Numbered from the stretch's first letter, positions 53,762-64,000 are shown. The stretch: 64,000 nucleotides of DNA from Pedobacter psychrophilus (GCF_001652725.1 NZ_LWHJ01000011.1:310001-374000); one strand, 5' to 3'. Numbers and translations are program-made. Notes: generated from the letters alone by a model not told the origin.

Positions 53762-55993
53762 CTAAATTGGGATGTATATATTTACCAATGTGCCTTTGTT
53801 AATATTGCTATCAAACTCTACTACACCATTTAATGAAGCAATACGGTCTTTTATATTTCTTATTCCTACACCTTCTTTATCAGCTAATTTAGAAGCATCA
53901 AAACCACTTCCATTATCTTCTATGCTAATGCTGATTTCTTTTTGCTCATTAGCAATTTGGATACTCATTTTATTTGCATTTGCATGCTTTATCACATTTG
54001 TAGTAATTTCCTGTATTACCCTATAAATTACGGTTTCAACTTGTTCGTCTAACTTTTGCTGTAAACCGGTAGTTTCTAAACTTACCTTCAGCATATTTTG
54101 ATCAATTTTTGAAATAAACTCTCTAATTGCTGCTGATAAACCAGCTTTTAATAAAGCATTTGGCATCATTTGATGAGATATAGATCTCATTTCATCATAA
54201 CTTTCATTTACTAAGCCTACAGCATGATCTGCCAACTCTTTTTCTTGTGGATTTTTAAAATCAATTTTTGATACTAAACCGTTCAAGCTTAGTAATGCCG
54301 CAGATAAAGTTTGTCCCACTCCATCATGTAAATCACCAGCTATTCGGCGTCGCTCTCTTTCTTCTGCATCTAATATCTTTCTGGTAGCTATTTCTTGTTG
54401 TATTCGTAATTCCTCCTGCATTTTAGCAGCTGCTTGTATTTTTCTTCTGTTTAAAACGAGGTATGTTATCAATAAAATTAATATTAGACCAACACTTGCT
54501 ATAATTAAGAAAATGTTTTTTTGTTCTAATTCTAATCGCTGGATTTGATTTTTTTGTCTGAGAATTTTAATATTTTGAAGATTTTGCTGGTTTTCTAAAG
54601 ATTTTCTGCTTATCTGATTTTGTTTTGCAATAATTTCTAGTTTTTGATTATCAATAAATAAATTTTGTTTGGTTATATCTAAATTTTGGCTAAATATAGA
54701 TAGAGACTGTAATTTGTTAGTTGTGTTTAATAGCGTAATTTGTTGTTCTTTTTTTTCGGTTTCAAATTTCTTGTTTAATTCATTTATCTGTTTTAAGTTT
54801 TCTGTATTTAAAATAGAATCATTTAAGACAGATAACTTTTTATTGTAGATAAAGGCTTCTTCAAAATCTTTTAGCTTTTCTAAATTATCGACTTTAGCTT
54901 CATAAGCTTTTTTGAGAATCTCTCTAAAATTATTAGCTACAGCAGTATTAATTACTTGTGTAAGTATCTGGTTGGCCTCATTTAATTCATTTAAGTTTGA
55001 GAGTATTTTAGCCTTTACAACTTTAGAACTTAAAATTCCGTTAACGTAGTTTGATTTCTCTAAATTGATTAAGGCTTCTTTTATAGTAGCAAGCGCTTTT
55101 TGGTTTTGGTTATTTTCTAATTCAATTTGGGCAATGTCCGATAGCGTATTACCAATTTGCCTATAATCATTATTAGTATTATAGATCTCTAAGCATTTAT
55201 GTAAATAGTTTAATGCGGTTTCCTGATTACCTTTACCAGAATAAGCCCCAGCTAAAATATTATAGGTTATGGCTACTGAATTATTAAGATTTATATTTTC
55301 ATAATTTATTTTTGCCTTAGAAGAGTAACTAATAGCATCATCATAGTTTTTTCTTTTAAGGTGCATTAAGGCTAATTGTACATAACCGTCTCCAATACCT
55401 TTATAATGTTTTTCCTGCTCAAAAATTTTAATAGCCTGTAATTGATAATTAGTGGCATTAGCATATACACCTTGTTGCCTATAAACATAAGCTATGTTGT
55501 TTAAACAAGTGGCTATTAAAGCTCTATCTTTTGCAGCTTCAGCAAAAATTAAAGACCTTTTGTAATAATCTAAAGCCTTATTGGGTTCACCTTTTTCGAT
55601 AAAGATATTTCCTTGGTTACGTAGAGCAATACTTTTATCCTTGTTAGATTTAGCTTCAATTTCGTAATCAATAAATGTTTTTAATGCTGCATCTAATTTT
55701 CCGGTACTGTAGTAGGCTTGTCCTAAATGATCAAAAGCGGTAAGTTTTTGTCTTAACAAATTAAGTTTCTGCGCATTCTTTATAAGCAACAAGTAATAAT
55801 AAATCGAGGTATCTGGTTTATTCTGAAAATAACTATCAGCAAGTTTTAATTGAAGATTTACATAGTTAGAATCTAACTTTTTTAAGAGGTTTAATTGTTT
55901 TTTATAAGAGGGAGATAGATTGTTTTGTGCAAATGAAGATGATTGAATAAACAGTGCGAAAAATATAAATATTTTTGTAAGTAGTTTATACAT
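53762..55993 (-). CDS. TPR-containing sensor histidine kinase (HisKA_3 type)
   Basis: A 743-residue sensor. It has a signal peptide (about 1-22), 7-8 TPR-like repeats (about 35-385), a coiled coil (about 390-490), one membrane segment (about 493-513) and a cytoplasmic kinase. The HisKA_3 phosphoacceptor is H556 in GDLHDGVGQT, and the ATPase domain shows EITTNVIKHANANK (N-box), DNGSGFD and GVGIRNIKDR. It would sense a signal in the periplasm through TPR protein contacts and phosphorylate a NarL-type response regulator; the nearest candidate is at 58580. It diverges from four small exported genes. Confidence 0.93.
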   Translation of the reverse strand: MYKLLTKIFIFFALFIQSSSFAQNNLSPSYKKQLNLLKKLDSNYVNLQLKLADSYFQNKPDTSIYYYLLLIKNAQKLNLLRQKLTAFDHLGQAYYSTGKLDAALKTFIDYEIEAKSNKDKSIALRNQGNIFIEKGEPNKALDYYKRSLIFAEAAKDRALIATCLNNIAYVYRQQGVYANATNYQLQAIKIFEQEKHYKGIGDGYVQLALMHLKRKNYDDAISYSSKAKINYENINLNNSVAITYNILAGAYSGKGNQETALNYLHKCLEIYNTNNDYRQIGNTLSDIAQIELENNQNQKALATIKEALINLEKSNYVNGILSSKVVKAKILSNLNELNEANQILTQVINTAVANNFREILKKAYEAKVDNLEKLKDFEEAFIYNKKLSVLNDSILNTENLKQINELNKKFETEKKEQQITLLNTTNKLQSLSIFSQNLDITKQNLFIDNQKLEIIAKQNQISRKSLENQQNLQNIKILRQKNQIQRLELEQKNIFLIIASVGLILILLITYLVLNRRKIQAAAKMQEELRIQQEIATRKILDAEERERRRIAGDLHDGVGQTLSAALLSLNGLVSKIDFKNPQEKELADHAVGLVNESYDEMRSISHQMMPNALLKAGLSAAIREFISKIDQNMLKVSLETTGLQQKLDEQVETVIYRVIQEITTNVIKHANANKMSIQIANEQKEISISIEDNGSGFDASKLADKEGVGIRNIKDRIASLNGVVEFDSNINKGTLVNIYIPI

Positions 55994-58579: not shown

Positions 58580-59203
58580 ATGGAGATAAAGGTATTATTG
58601 GTCGATGATCATCCTATATTGTTAGATGGTTTAAGAGGCATTTTAGAAGAAGAAATAGATTTTTCTGTTAAAGGATGCTATGCTAATGGGCATTTTGCTT
58701 TAAGTCATTTAAAAAAAGAACCCATTGATATTTTAATTACTGATTATTCTATGCCAGATATGAATGGTGCTGATTTGGCTAAAGAAGCTCGTTTAATTTC
58801 TCCTAATCTTAAAATTATTGTCCTGAGCATGCATGATGAGCCTCATAAAGTGCAAGAAATAATGAAACTAGAAATTAATGGTTACATTTTAAAAAAATAT
58901 GCTCGACAGGAAATATTAACAGCTATTAATGTTGTTAACGCAGGAGGTAAATTTTGGAGCAATGAGGTTAACCATATTTTGATAAAGGGCCTTGGTTTAA
59001 AAGAAGAAGAATTTACTTTAACTGATCGAGAGATTGAAGTACTCAAACTCATTATTAAAGAAAAGAATAGTAGAGAAATTGCAGGTTTATTGTTTATAAG
59101 TGAGCGTACTGTAGAAACACATCGCAAAAATATGCTAAGGAAAACCCAAAGTAGCTCTACCGTAGGTTTAATTAAATATGCCTATGAACATAAATTCATC
59201 TAG
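58580..59203 (+). CDS. NarL/LuxR family response regulator
   Basis: A 207-residue regulator. The receiver domain has DD at 9-10, the phosphoacceptor D55 in LITDYSMPD, SMHDE and the conserved Lys in YILKKY. The C-terminal LuxR-type helix-turn-helix includes LTDREIEVLKLI and ISERTVETHRKNM. HisKA_3 kinases normally pair with such regulators, so the kinase at 53762-55993 is the likely partner. Transcribed alone. Confidence 0.92.
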   Translation: MEIKVLLVDDHPILLDGLRGILEEEIDFSVKGCYANGHFALSHLKKEPIDILITDYSMPDMNGADLAKEARLISPNLKIIVLSMHDEPHKVQEIMKLEINGYILKKYARQEILTAINVVNAGGKFWSNEVNHILIKGLGLKEEEFTLTDREIEVLKLIIKEKNSREIAGLLFISERTVETHRKNMLRKTQSSSTVGLIKYAYEHKFI

Positions 59204-59761: not shown

Positions 59762-62700
59762 TTAGATCCTGAATCCAAAATTAAAAGAAATCAATTTACT
59801 TTCTCTGGTAAAGCCATAACCGGTGGTCAATAATAATTTGTTAAACAAATTAAGATATATTCCTGGACCAAAACCTTGATGCCAATTTCTATTCTCAACA
59901 AAGTTGTTTTGAACTTTTGCGATGTCATAAAAACCATAAACACCAAAATCTCCTGTAAATACGTAATTTCTAAATGATGATATTGGAAAACGTAATTCAG
60001 TATTTGCAAAATAGGCTGATCTACCAGAAAAACGTTCACTTCTAAAACCTCTTAAATAATTATTATTACCTATGGTATTAGCTTGGTAAAATTTATAATC
60101 ACCAATATTTGTCATTGCACCTAACTTTAATGCCACTGTTAAAGGGAAATTACCATTAGGCGTGGCGTAAAAAGAACCAATTGTACTTAACCGTAAATAT
60201 TTATCGCTTGCTCCCTGTATTTCTGCAAAATACTCTGCTTTATTTTCCCATTTAAATCCTGTTTTAGGCATTTTATTATCATCTAAAAAACTAAAATTCA
60301 GGTAAGATTTCAAACTTAAAAACTTAGCAGGATTGGTATAATTGAATGTTTGGCCGGCTAAAAAATTTGGATCTGAGTAGGAGATAATCCTAAAGTAATC
60401 AAAGCCAGGCCCAATCCCAACTTTAATATCATCACTAATGTGATATTGAAAATAGGTAGCGACATTAATAGTTTCTGACCTCACTCTGTAAAAATCAACA
60501 TCGTCATTAATATTTTGGGTATCATTCCCAATGCCATAAAAGTTAAAAATATACGCAGGTCCAGCATAATTACTTTTAACTACTAAGTCATATTTATGAG
60601 CTAATAAATCATAAAAAGTAGCATTATATTTTGCGAATAAAGCTTTAGTTGTGAGTGAATGCACAACTGAAAACTTTTGATCATAACTATATGGCTGTTT
60701 TCTAAAGCCATAATGCTTTAATGAATATGAAACGCCTAAAAGTGGTCCATCTTTCCCGTTCATATAATCAGCTGTAGGAAAAGGTGATCTTTTATCGTAA
60801 TTGAAATTATCTGGTAAATATTGGTTTACCCATTCTTTATCAGATTTTCTTACTTCTGTATTACTTGCTGTTTTAAATGTGTTTTTAATATTATCGAAAA
60901 GGATTGTTCTACCGTTTTCTGCCTCATCTGCTAAATAATCTTTTTTATCGCCACCTACAATTCTTAATTTAATAGGTTGATCAGATTTTCCTTTAATAAT
61001 TAAGCTATCACTATCGCCCAAAAGGTAAAAATTTAACTCACGTGTATCGTTATTATTAAAAGTTCTATCATAAATCTCTTTATCAATCTCACCTTCCTTT
61101 TTAATTTTGTACATTTTAACTTGTGTACTATCTTTTCCTCTGTTAATTGATAGATATTCATGCTTATCAGAGCCAGAAACGGTAACTTCTTTTGATAAGG
61201 TCTGATAATAGCTTTTTGCAACATCTAATAATTGGTTTCTTCTAGAGATCAATTTTGCAACAATTTCTTCTCCGCTTAAAGCATAAGCTTCTTTTGGCAT
61301 TTTTGATACCGAATTTTTAATCACTTTATCCGTCAGTTGCTTTTGCATTTTTTGAGCTATTGCCATCCAATTTTCGTAAGACAATTCATTCAATAATCTT
61401 CTATCTAAATTTCTTGCCGCAATAGAGAGTTTTGCAGGGTCCTCAATTGTATATCCAAAATTTTGTACATCTGGTATCGCTTTAGTGATAATTTTTGGCA
61501 ATAAACCATCAAATTTTGTAAATACTTGATCCCTGTCCCTTGGAATTGGTTTATAAACAGAACCTTTACCCTTATTTTCAAACTCTGCCCAACGCCATTG
61601 GTCTTCATGTCTATCCCAATCTCCAATTAGCAAATCAAATAATCTGGCTGTTAAAAAACTTTTTTGATCTACGCTGTTATCATTATCTTCTTTTAATTTT
61701 TCATACATGGTTTCTGTACTCACAGCATTCTTTGTATATCCAAATTCTTTAAAGGCAGATAAATCTTCATCAGGTCTTATTTCTATAATCCCAATCCTGC
61801 CTCCAACTTCTTGTAAATAAGGTCCTAGCAAACGAGAGTAAGGCATATAAACCAACTCTGGATTGGTATGAAAAACGCCAATTGCAGTCGCCATTCCTGG
61901 GATTGCTAGTGCGCCAAAAGGATGTGCAGATGATATTTGATCTTGCACAATATCATCTGCAAATGTAGGTCTAAATCCTTCTGGCAATAATGCAGAGGGA
62001 TCTTTATCTACAGTTCTAAATTGATATTGTATTTTATTATTTCCCTGGAATCTTAACGAAGTAGTTTGATTTCCACCACCTAATTGTAATGGTTTTAAGC
62101 CACCAGTATATTTTGTTAAATCTAAATAAGGAATGGTAACCGGAGTTGCCCAAACAGTTCTATAATGCTCCCCAAAAATCTTTTGTTTAGACTTTGAAGC
62201 TTTGTAACGATCTCCTACAGCAACATATTTTGTGCTATCTATATAGTTTTCTTTACTTTCTGCAAGTGTTTCTTTTTTACCAGCAGGTAATGAATATAAT
62301 GGAGAACGATAGATTAATTTACCGGTGCTACCATCTTTAATTGGTTCCCAAAACTCTATCCAACATTGCCCGTTATCATAATAATTTAACCTCGCAAAAC
62401 CTTTAGTCCCATGCCCAAATAAAGCATCATTACCCTTAAATAGGGCACTATTTTTACTTCCCGCACCACTAATTACCTGATGGATATCTTTATAAGGCGT
62501 TAACTGTAAAGCATGTTCATGTCCAGATGCGATAACCAGGTTTTTTTCATCATTAAAAGCCGCCAACAATTTGTTCCTTAAATCCTGGTAATGCTTATTA
62601 GAAATATCTTGTCGCGATAAGCCGTATTGTCTTAATAGTGGATACAAAGATCCTAAACCAGGTAAAGGAATATAAAGATTGTCTCTTACCAAGGTTAATG

Positions 62701-63511
62701 GAAATAAATAATCCAAACCTGTAAAATAACCTCCGTGTTTACCATTAGAAAATAAAGGATGATGTTGAGTGAAAACGATATTTTTACCTTTATTTCTAAT
62801 TAAAATATCTTTTATCTGAGCAATAAGTTGATCCTCGTTTTCTACTGAACAACCTTGTTCATACCTGTCAGACCGGCTAAAGCTGCTTAACCACCATTCG
62901 CTATCTATGGCAATAATTACCAAATTATTGTTCATTTGTATTTCTATTGGACCTGCGCAACCATTACTTGGTAAAAACACATCTGCACTATCCAAATAAT
63001 TTTCTATAAATTCTTCTTCTCTCTTAACTGCTTCAAGTCCGCCAGGGTGGCTTTTGTTCCAATCATGATTACCAGGAATAAAGATTTTTTTACCTTTAAA
63101 ATCCTTTACAATTTTCATTTGTTCGGTAATGTATTTTTCCTTCAATTCTCGGTCAAATGCACCAGGTTCTGGCATTCCATGTTCGTAAATATTATCTCCC
63201 ATAAAAATAACAGCATCTTTAGCACTCGAGGTGATTTTTAATGTAGTATCTGCTTTGTTTTTGGAGATAATTGTATCAGTCTGATACATTTGAGATTGTA
63301 ATAATTTTAAAGTTGGTTCTTGTTGATCAACATCAGGTTTACCTGCATCCCCAATTAAAAAGACAGTATAATCTAAAGAAAGTGTATCCGGATTGTTTGC
63401 TTTTTTCCAATCTCTTTCGCTTTTAGCATAAAAAGGTTTATAAGTTGTACAAGAACAATAAAGGAGACCTACTACAGAAAGTGAGATTAGTTTAGTAAAT
63501 TTATTTTGCAT
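59762..63511 (-). CDS. Purple-acid-phosphatase-type metallophosphoesterase fused to a kinase-like module and an outer membrane barrel
   Basis: A 1249-residue protein. The N-terminus (1-30) is a signal with Cys residues near 19-21 that may give lipidation. Residues about 48-400 are a metallophosphoesterase with PAP-type motifs GDAG (54-57), GDNIY (105-109), GNHD (147-150), THHP-like HHP and GHEH (330-333). Residues about 470-760 have a kinase-like pattern: FRTVDKD as a possible ATP-lobe lysine region, LLIGDWDRHEDQWRW with D633, and PRDRDQVF (657-664), resembling the catalytic D and metal-binding D of Fam20C/HipA-like kinases. The last 320 residues are beta-rich and end in FNFGFRI, resembling the Omp85 barrel. 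The surface location is inferred. It overlaps the propeller gene by 11 bases. Confidence 0.8.
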   Translation of the reverse strand: MQNKFTKLISLSVVGLLYCSCTTYKPFYAKSERDWKKANNPDTLSLDYTVFLIGDAGKPDVDQQEPTLKLLQSQMYQTDTIISKNKADTTLKITSSAKDAVIFMGDNIYEHGMPEPGAFDRELKEKYITEQMKIVKDFKGKKIFIPGNHDWNKSHPGGLEAVKREEEFIENYLDSADVFLPSNGCAGPIEIQMNNNLVIIAIDSEWWLSSFSRSDRYEQGCSVENEDQLIAQIKDILIRNKGKNIVFTQHHPLFSNGKHGGYFTGLDYLFPLTLVRDNLYIPLPGLGSLYPLLRQYGLSRQDISNKHYQDLRNKLLAAFNDEKNLVIASGHEHALQLTPYKDIHQVISGAGSKNSALFKGNDALFGHGTKGFARLNYYDNGQCWIEFWEPIKDGSTGKLIYRSPLYSLPAGKKETLAESKENYIDSTKYVAVGDRYKASKSKQKIFGEHYRTVWATPVTIPYLDLTKYTGGLKPLQLGGGNQTTSLRFQGNNKIQYQFRTVDKDPSALLPEGFRPTFADDIVQDQISSAHPFGALAIPGMATAIGVFHTNPELVYMPYSRLLGPYLQEVGGRIGIIEIRPDEDLSAFKEFGYTKNAVSTETMYEKLKEDNDNSVDQKSFLTARLFDLLIGDWDRHEDQWRWAEFENKGKGSVYKPIPRDRDQVFTKFDGLLPKIITKAIPDVQNFGYTIEDPAKLSIAARNLDRRLLNELSYENWMAIAQKMQKQLTDKVIKNSVSKMPKEAYALSGEEIVAKLISRRNQLLDVAKSYYQTLSKEVTVSGSDKHEYLSINRGKDSTQVKMYKIKKEGEIDKEIYDRTFNNNDTRELNFYLLGDSDSLIIKGKSDQPIKLRIVGGDKKDYLADEAENGRTILFDNIKNTFKTASNTEVRKSDKEWVNQYLPDNFNYDKRSPFPTADYMNGKDGPLLGVSYSLKHYGFRKQPYSYDQKFSVVHSLTTKALFAKYNATFYDLLAHKYDLVVKSNYAGPAYIFNFYGIGNDTQNINDDVDFYRVRSETINVATYFQYHISDDIKVGIGPGFDYFRIISYSDPNFLAGQTFNYTNPAKFLSLKSYLNFSFLDDNKMPKTGFKWENKAEYFAEIQGASDKYLRLSTIGSFYATPNGNFPLTVALKLGAMTNIGDYKFYQANTIGNNNYLRGFRSERFSGRSAYFANTELRFPISSFRNYVFTGDFGVYGFYDIAKVQNNFVENRNWHQGFGPGIYLNLFNKLLLTTGYGFTRESKLISFNFGFRI

Positions 63512-64000
63512 CTAATTTTTTTATTTTAATAATGTTACCGGGATTTTTTCCCCCTTCGTTAGAGATATATAATTCTCCTTTACTATTAAAGGCCATTCCC
63601 TCTGGTTGGTTAAAAGCATTTCCGTGAAACGGAATAATTTGTTTAATACTATCGGCAGAAGCCATAACAATTATAATATTGTTGATGGACGAAAGCACAT
63701 ATAAATCTTTTGTGCCGGGTTTAAATGTAATTGCAGTAGGTTTTAAAATCTCGTTTTGATTTTCATTTCCAACAGCTCTCAAAAATCTTTTGGATATTTC
63801 TGTTAGTTTATCGCCCTTAAAATGATTTTGTATGTTTTTTAATTTAATTTGATAAGCAGGTGTTTTATGGAAAATTTTATCTTTTAAAGAAAAGGAATAA
63901 ATGTTTTTTTGTTCATTTTTTTTATCGTCTTTATCAAAATTTTTGTCCTTAACTGATAATAAAATATTGTTTGAATTTGAGTCGTAATTAATACCCTCAA
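63501..64000 (-). CDS. SdiA-regulated domain beta-propeller protein (5' part cut by window edge)
   Basis: The frame stays open from the stop at 63501 to the window edge; the true start lies beyond 64000. The visible part shows EGINYDSNSNNILLSVKDK and QPEGMAFNSKGELYISNEGG, repeats of NHL/SdiA-regulated propellers. Such proteins are typically secreted and found next to phosphatase genes in Bacteroidota. Its stop overlaps the start of the fusion gene, so the two are co-translated. Ligand unknown. Confidence 0.75.
   Translation of the reverse strand, partial: EGINYDSNSNNILLSVKDKNFDKDDKKNEQKNIYSFSLKDKIFHKTPAYQIKLKNIQNHFKGDKLTEISKRFLRAVGNENQNEILKPTAITFKPGTKDLYVLSSINNIIIVMASADSIKQIIPFHGNAFNQPEGMAFNSKGELYISNEGGKNPGNIIKIKKLDAK

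Follow-up and report, generated by a model that had tools for sequence, protein, structure and literature searches.

What does a bacterium do with a single protein chain that seems to combine a phosphatase, a kinase and an outer membrane barrel? The question is raised by a gene on the minus strand of a 64,000 nucleotide stretch of the Pedobacter psychrophilus genome (NZ_LWHJ01000011.1:310001-374000; Bacteroidota, 4.0 Mb), the whole of which is referred to here as the window. The layout of the encoded protein is that of a lipoprotein in which a purple acid phosphatase (PAP)-type domain is followed by a protein-kinase-like (PKL) domain, a beta-rich linker and an Omp85 barrel (Table 1). The reading that we favour, with a probability of about 0.6, is a lipoprotein anchored in the outer membrane, with its phosphatase and kinase-like domains in the periplasm and a role in phosphate or polyphosphate handling. 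A preliminary description of the gene, which gave no strand, had located PAP motifs, D633 and D659/D661, all of which were found at the residues named, and the interpretation placed on them stands in part, the exception being a location at the cell surface.

When the window protein was scanned with Pfam, PF00149 alone was found (residues 96–262, E 6.6e-8, above cut-off); NCBIfam gave Omp85_fam at residues 1071–1247 (E 3e-16, below the curated cut-off), and a single-sequence search of the PDB with the whole protein returned a chance match only. Pfam and NCBIfam scans of 71 family members revealed no family model for the kinase-like domain. An AlphaFold2 (AF2) model of residues 425–800, built from 71 sequences, reached a predicted local distance difference test (pLDDT) score of 95.6 and a predicted template modelling (pTM) score of 0.93, and its elements follow in a PKL-like order: an N-lobe sheet, a glycine loop, a helix with D524 and a hinge strand with E577, continued by a helix (residues 616–629), the D633 loop, two strands and D659/D661. 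Foldseek comparison with the PDB matched it to CtkA (E 3.4e-5), CotH (8.3e-5), PI4KIIa (2.5e-4) and Fam20C (4kqa; 3.9e-4, probability 1.00), with further matches to mTOR, VPS34, JAK2 JH2 and HipT. Each of the 16 matches at E≤0.001 is a PKL fold, and so, to judge by their descriptions, are the others among the 50 listed. A non-kinase fold for residues 450–780 was also considered, and with the leading PDB matches all PKL, CotH, Fam20C and HipT among them, model and fold search strongly support the kinase-like middle region suggested earlier.

A profile of 161 homologues of the kinase-like domain was compared by hhalign with profiles built in the present analysis, giving E-values of 0.0011 against CotH and 8.1e-4 against HipA, beside 3.5e-4 for CotH against HipA and 0.13 and 0.26 for the phosphatase and the barrel as controls. 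By this measure its link to CotH and to HipA is of about the same strength as the link between those two. In the CotH alignment IGDWDRH falls on TGMWDNY and IPRDRDQVF on IPYDYDNTF, placing D633 on the WD of CotH. A profile search of the PDB with alignment A1 gave CtkA at E 0.11, a sub-threshold match among chance EF-hand matches that covers the D633 loop. The window protein had no Pfam match to CotH (PF08757), which three of the 71 members matched weakly (best E 0.014), nor to HipA/CtkA (PF07804), and the Pfam and PDB searches gave no sequence match to Fam20C, the similarity being one of fold. Because of these outcomes the domain is filed apart from CotH, HipA and Fam20C, and is by sequence an unnamed PKL family in a new architecture.

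Conservation was counted in 31 homologues of phosphatase-kinase-barrel architecture and in 77 members overall, sampled without motif bias; 80 named loci found by scanning genome contigs with the pattern Dxx[ILV][GSA]DWDRH, and thereby selected for D633, were excluded from these counts. In an alignment of 71 sequences seven columns are invariant and about 29 nearly so, including W632, D633, R634, H635, Q638, D659, R660 and D661. R499, K503, D659 and D661 are each present in 31 of the 31 fusions, E577 and D633 in 30 of 31, and all six are intact in 65 of the 77 members; D524 is likewise conserved. The two aspartates singled out earlier, D633 and D661, are thus conserved in homologues, and the upstream FRTVDKD, in which the ATP-lobe lysine had been sought, carries conserved R499 and K503, the latter a candidate for that role. 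Residues expected of a PKL enzyme are present as a catalytic Asp (D633), a metal-binding equivalent (Q638) and a DFG-type D659/D661, with Q638 standing at the usual metal-binding Asn position in most members and Asn in a few. Model and alignments together show the middle domain as a predicted PKL fold with a complete set of catalytic-type residues.

An active PKL enzyme need not be a protein kinase, as AMPylation, glutamylation and lipid or glycan kinase activities occur in other PKL families. The domain could act in AMPylation, as SelO does, in glutamylation, like SidJ, or as a kinase of envelope lipids or glycans such as lipid A, an alternative to be taken seriously although unlikely; PI4KIIa is among the best fold matches and the outer membrane location suits envelope substrates, but no substrate-specific feature was found and sequence cannot separate these activities from that of a protein kinase. 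A survey of PKL proteins marks families by AMPylation and glutamylation (PMC9758233). Rather improbable is a pseudokinase, which would bind a nucleotide or phospho-ligand and control phosphatase or barrel while transferring no phosphate. Q638 in place of Asn and the supposed scarcity of ATP in the periplasm would agree with it, as would the degenerate members, some beside an intact paralogue, with K503, D633 and D661 jointly lost in 4 of the 77 and R499 going as well; against it, the six residues are intact in most members and nearly invariant in the fusions, and degenerate members sit on long branches of the kinase tree. At four loci (L031, L032, L128 and L042) an intact kinase-like gene adjoins a paralogue with the catalytic Asp replaced, by Ser in three of them, and the paralogue in L042 keeps only D524 of the key residues; such pairs recall Fam20C and its pseudokinase partner Fam20A.

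The phosphatase is as first described, with all five PAP-type motifs intact, motif II in the PAP-type form GDxxY. The six metal-ligand positions (D55, D106, N148, H250, H331 and H333) and Y109 are present in the window protein and all intact in 27 of the 31 homologues of the same architecture, and a fold search with the full model matched the PAP-like GAP50 (3tgh). The motifs show a PAP-type domain with intact metal ligands. Purple acid phosphatases and GAP50 share these five motifs with the window protein, whereas only the latter is joined to a kinase-like domain and a barrel.

At the C-terminus, previously called barrel-like, the full model gave 16 long strands for which Foldseek found BamA and TamA (E down to 4.6e-9), and L, R and G of the LRGF motif are nearly invariant in alignment A2, so that both the 16-strand barrel and the loop-6 (V/L)RG(F/Y) motif of Omp85 proteins were found. 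Pfam revealed no POTRA domain in the window protein; Omp85 subfamilies without POTRA, such as Metallo, were accepted in a 2014 survey (PMC4104836). The linker has a profile of its own that was found in nearly all barrel-bearing members. Cys is kept at the lipobox site in close homologues (LYAAC in Pedobacter puniceum, L091; HAC in L002; QGC in L093), P. puniceum being the closest named relative for the kinase-like domain (73% identical).

The N-terminal domains of Omp85 proteins are periplasmic. In PlpD, the best-studied enzyme-Omp85 fusion, the enzyme domain stays in the periplasm (PMC11116518); in the window protein the lipid anchor fits the inner leaflet, and lipobox C21 is followed by TTYKP, the acidic surface-export signal being absent there. 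Because of the periplasmic Omp85 N-termini, the PlpD precedent and the absence of that signal, the phosphatase and kinase-like pair probably faces the periplasm, which is likelier than the cell surface proposed in the preliminary description. A type Vd-like secretion, with the phosphatase-kinase part as a passenger carried to the surface by the barrel, as that description implied, is improbable: passenger secretion was the first proposal for enzyme-Omp85 fusions, and Heinz and Lithgow weighed both membrane sides for the PF00149-Omp85 group (PMC4104836), but besides PlpD and the missing run of acidic residues after the lipidated Cys, a lipobox or membrane anchor is kept in barrel-less members. 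The patatin-Omp85 proteins PlpD and FplA resemble the window protein in having an enzyme N-terminal to a 16-strand Omp85 barrel, and differ in combining a lipase-type enzyme with POTRA where the window protein has two phospho-enzyme-type domains and no recognised POTRA.

Table 1. Positions in the window of the kinase-barrel gene, its domains and motifs, and the upstream gene
Feature	Position	Strand	Basis
Whole gene	59762..63511	-	Open reading frame and translation: 1249 aa, ATG start
Signal peptide, residues 1-21, with the lipobox LLYCSC; C21 is the probable lipidated Cys	63449..63511	-	Sequence
Metallophosphoesterase domain, about residues 50-400	62312..63364	-	PF00149; fold match to 3tgh; intact metal ligands
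PAP motif I, GDAG (residue 54; D55)	63341..63352	-	Sequence
PAP motif II, GDNIY (D106, Y109); GDNIYEHG begins at 105	63185..63199	-	Sequence
PAP motif III, GNHD (N148, H149); GNHDW begins at 147	63062..63073	-	Sequence
PAP motif IV, HHP (H250)	62756..62764	-	Sequence
PAP motif V, GHEH (residue 330; H331, H333)	62513..62524	-	Sequence
Protein-kinase-like domain, residues 430-800	61112..62224	-	AF2, Foldseek, hhalign
Glycine-rich loop, GGG at 478-480, flanked by two strands of the N-lobe	62072..62080	-	Conserved; between model strands 48-54 and 61-66
R499...K503, basic residues at the next N-lobe strand and candidates for binding nucleotide phosphate; FRTVDKD begins at 498	62003..62017	-	Conservation
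Catalytic-loop-like D631-W-D633-R-H-E-D-Q638; IGDWDRHED begins at 629	61598..61621	-	Conservation, hhalign
Putative metal-binding motif D659-R-D661 (DFG equivalent); PRDRDQ begins at 657	61529..61537	-	Conservation; aligned to CotH IPYDYDNTF
Beta-rich linker domain, about residues 801-906	60794..61111	-	Strands in full model
16-strand Omp85 beta-barrel, about residues 907-1249	59762..60793	-	Strand count, Foldseek, NCBIfam Omp85_fam
LRGF 1153-1156, Omp85 loop-6 VRGF/Y-type motif	60044..60055	-	L, R, G near-invariant in alignment A2
Upstream SdiA-regulated/NHL-type propeller gene, 3' part (complete length 301 aa, extending beyond the window)	63501..63998	-	Overlaps the kinase-barrel gene by 11 nucleotides

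A whole-domain search located the kinase-like domain in 115 of 297 Bacteroidota genomes, and it occurs also in some neighbouring phyla. This spread, with the conserved columns given above, speaks against a chance occurrence. Counted as distinct homologues, open-ended reading frames included, 86 have the four-part layout of the window protein, 57 are kinase-linker-barrel, 12 kinase-linker and five kinase alone. At two loci (L083:6051-10097 and L084:3838-7793) kinase-like domain, phosphatase and linker-barrel are encoded by three consecutive genes, and at L120 kinase and linker-barrel by two. On a rough kinase tree the phosphatase is gained or lost many times; a degenerate phosphatase with an intact kinase was found in 9 of 85 fusions and the reverse in none, the latter count being biased downwards by the motif-selected loci in this set. 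Mainly because it is common to every architecture, the kinase-like domain is taken as the probable constant core of the family and the phosphatase as an accessory that is often absent. Most forms that lack the barrel have a lipobox, the short forms inspected have an N-terminal membrane anchor or signal, and as one or other of these was seen on the members inspected of each architecture, the whole family appears exported. An ordinary outer membrane phosphatase with a non-catalytic spacer and an incidental kinase-like match is hardly credible, for although Pfam recognises PF00149 alone, it is the spacer rather than the phosphatase that all architectures share, its fold and profile matches are all PKL and its conserved residues are the acidic ones, so that fold, conservation and profile results strongly disfavour it. 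The three-gene sets of L083 and L084 adjoin ABC exporter, OEP and MgtE genes. The kinase-like proteins of L033, L039 and L040 are short (about 425 aa), are membrane-anchored at the N-terminus and group in a single long-branched clade.

The SdiA-regulated propeller gene lies directly upstream on the same strand in 18 of 59 unbiased and 19 of 79 named loci. PPK1 is found nearby in 14 of 59 unbiased and 18 of 79 named loci, in several gene orders and, in the unbiased set, in seven families; under a generous null of 2.7% per locus this is an enrichment with P 5e-10 when loci are counted and 4e-6 when families are, the 26 families being an approximate count made by hand. HD-PycTM proteins occur in 27 of the 59 loci, and Ppx/GppA adjoins the gene once (L070), not generally. 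One island (L232:1439-12552) contains PAP2, HD-PycTM, SixA, PPK1, kinase-barrel, SdiA-regulated, phosphate-porin-like, CotH and PAP2 genes, thus two PKL-fold proteins in one phosphate-related cluster. The gene neighbourhood of relatives suggests a physiological role in phosphate or polyphosphate handling in the envelope; where phospho-signalling or phosphate turnover had been proposed, turnover is the nearer, the neighbours being of phosphate and polyphosphate type, and signalling is a hypothesis. A protein with HD and PycTM (Pycsar-effector-like) is encoded divergently from the operon at L071:1508-2701, and 7 of the 59 loci have a class III cyclase with TPR. In the window itself a TPR histidine kinase (HisKA_3; 53762-55993) and a LuxR-type response regulator (58580-59203) probably form a pair; the three small genes that lie between them have no confident Pfam match.

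In the reading of a periplasmic phosphatase and kinase-like lipoprotein, the kinase-like domain would be catalytically active as a phosphotransferase and represent a new PKL family close to CotH, HipA/CtkA and Fam20C, with D633 as catalytic base and Q638, D659 and D661 holding the metal-nucleotide. That degenerate members lose K503, D633 and D661 jointly also speaks for this reading. The phosphatase would act on that enzyme's envelope substrate or one related to it, stripping phosphate, or would be a source of free phosphate; the barrel would tether both enzymes to the outer membrane on its inner side, with substrate or product perhaps passing through it. A role in envelope phosphate or polyphosphate handling would fit the neighbours in relatives, namely PPK1, SixA-type and PAP2 phosphatases, HD phosphohydrolase, CotH and a phosphate-selective-porin-like protein. 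Several points weigh against this reading. The TM-scores to solved kinases are modest (0.27–0.40 when normalised by query length; for CtkA 0.50 by target), which makes the modelled domain a remote PKL; linker against kinase gave E 0.006 in hhalign, a chance or shared-edge match that marks the noise level, and E-values of about 1e-3 are therefore not far above noise. The full-length model (residues 50–1249) is of moderate confidence (pLDDT 83, pTM 0.69), and the putative roles of R499, K503, D524 and E577, including the basic-acid pairing, were assigned from their order along the chain. Catalysis by both enzyme-type domains is a prediction, and with the periplasm thought to hold little ATP the phosphate donor is a puzzle. 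Most loci lack PPK1 within the stretch read, and since PPK1 of the window genome is on another contig, the PPK1 link comes via relatives and not from the window's own genome. A two-way enzyme on the inner side of the outer membrane, whose single chain would both phosphorylate and dephosphorylate an envelope substrate, coupled to polyphosphate metabolism and perhaps using a non-ATP donor such as polyphosphate, is a doubtful extension.

CotH resembles the kinase-like domain in its PKL fold, in a D-loop followed by an IP-x-D-x-D-x-x-F motif and in being extracytoplasmic, and a CotH gene also neighbours the family gene in some relatives; it differs in its family model, PF08757, and we know of no CotH fused to a phosphatase or barrel. 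CtkA, the best fold match, and HipA share a GN-DRH-type loop with the domain, but CtkA is secreted and HipA a cytoplasmic toxin-type kinase, both without an envelope anchor, and at the sequence level the likeness is confined to profiles. Fam20C, the Golgi casein kinase, is likewise an extracytoplasmic PKL but a eukaryotic protein kinase of the secretory pathway. A PF00149 domain with an Omp85 barrel, as in the window protein, was described by Heinz and Lithgow in 2014 as the Omp85 'Metallo' subfamily and called a metalloprotease (PMC4104836); these proteins and the window-type fusions are very probably the same. When the main text of that study was searched for 'kinase' and 'phospho', neither term occurred (PMC4104836), and our literature search, many subscription papers being outside its reach, found no description of the kinase-like domain. 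The phosphatase-Omp85 fusion was already reported in 2014, with no mention, by that term search, of the kinase-like domain. A virulence-associated metallophosphoesterase of Riemerella anatipestifer was considered as a studied homologue and not counted, being listed in a review as a type IX secretion system effector and thus probably a different protein. In a Flavobacterium study of phosphate depletion the phosphate response included a PF00149 protein and a PPK-like gene, none of which was identified as the kinase-like family.

To our knowledge kinases are hardly known in the envelope compartment. If the proposed reading is true, an unnamed extracytoplasmic kinase-like family present in ~40% of the sampled Bacteroidota genomes would be among the commonest bacterial envelope kinases, and its fusion with a phosphatase and an Omp85 barrel would be a defined, testable unit. 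The 2014 'Metallo' Omp85 group would be redefined, its constant module being the kinase-like domain and not the phosphoesterase, and the recurrent PPK1 neighbourhood directs attention to the physiology of phosphate and polyphosphate at this membrane.

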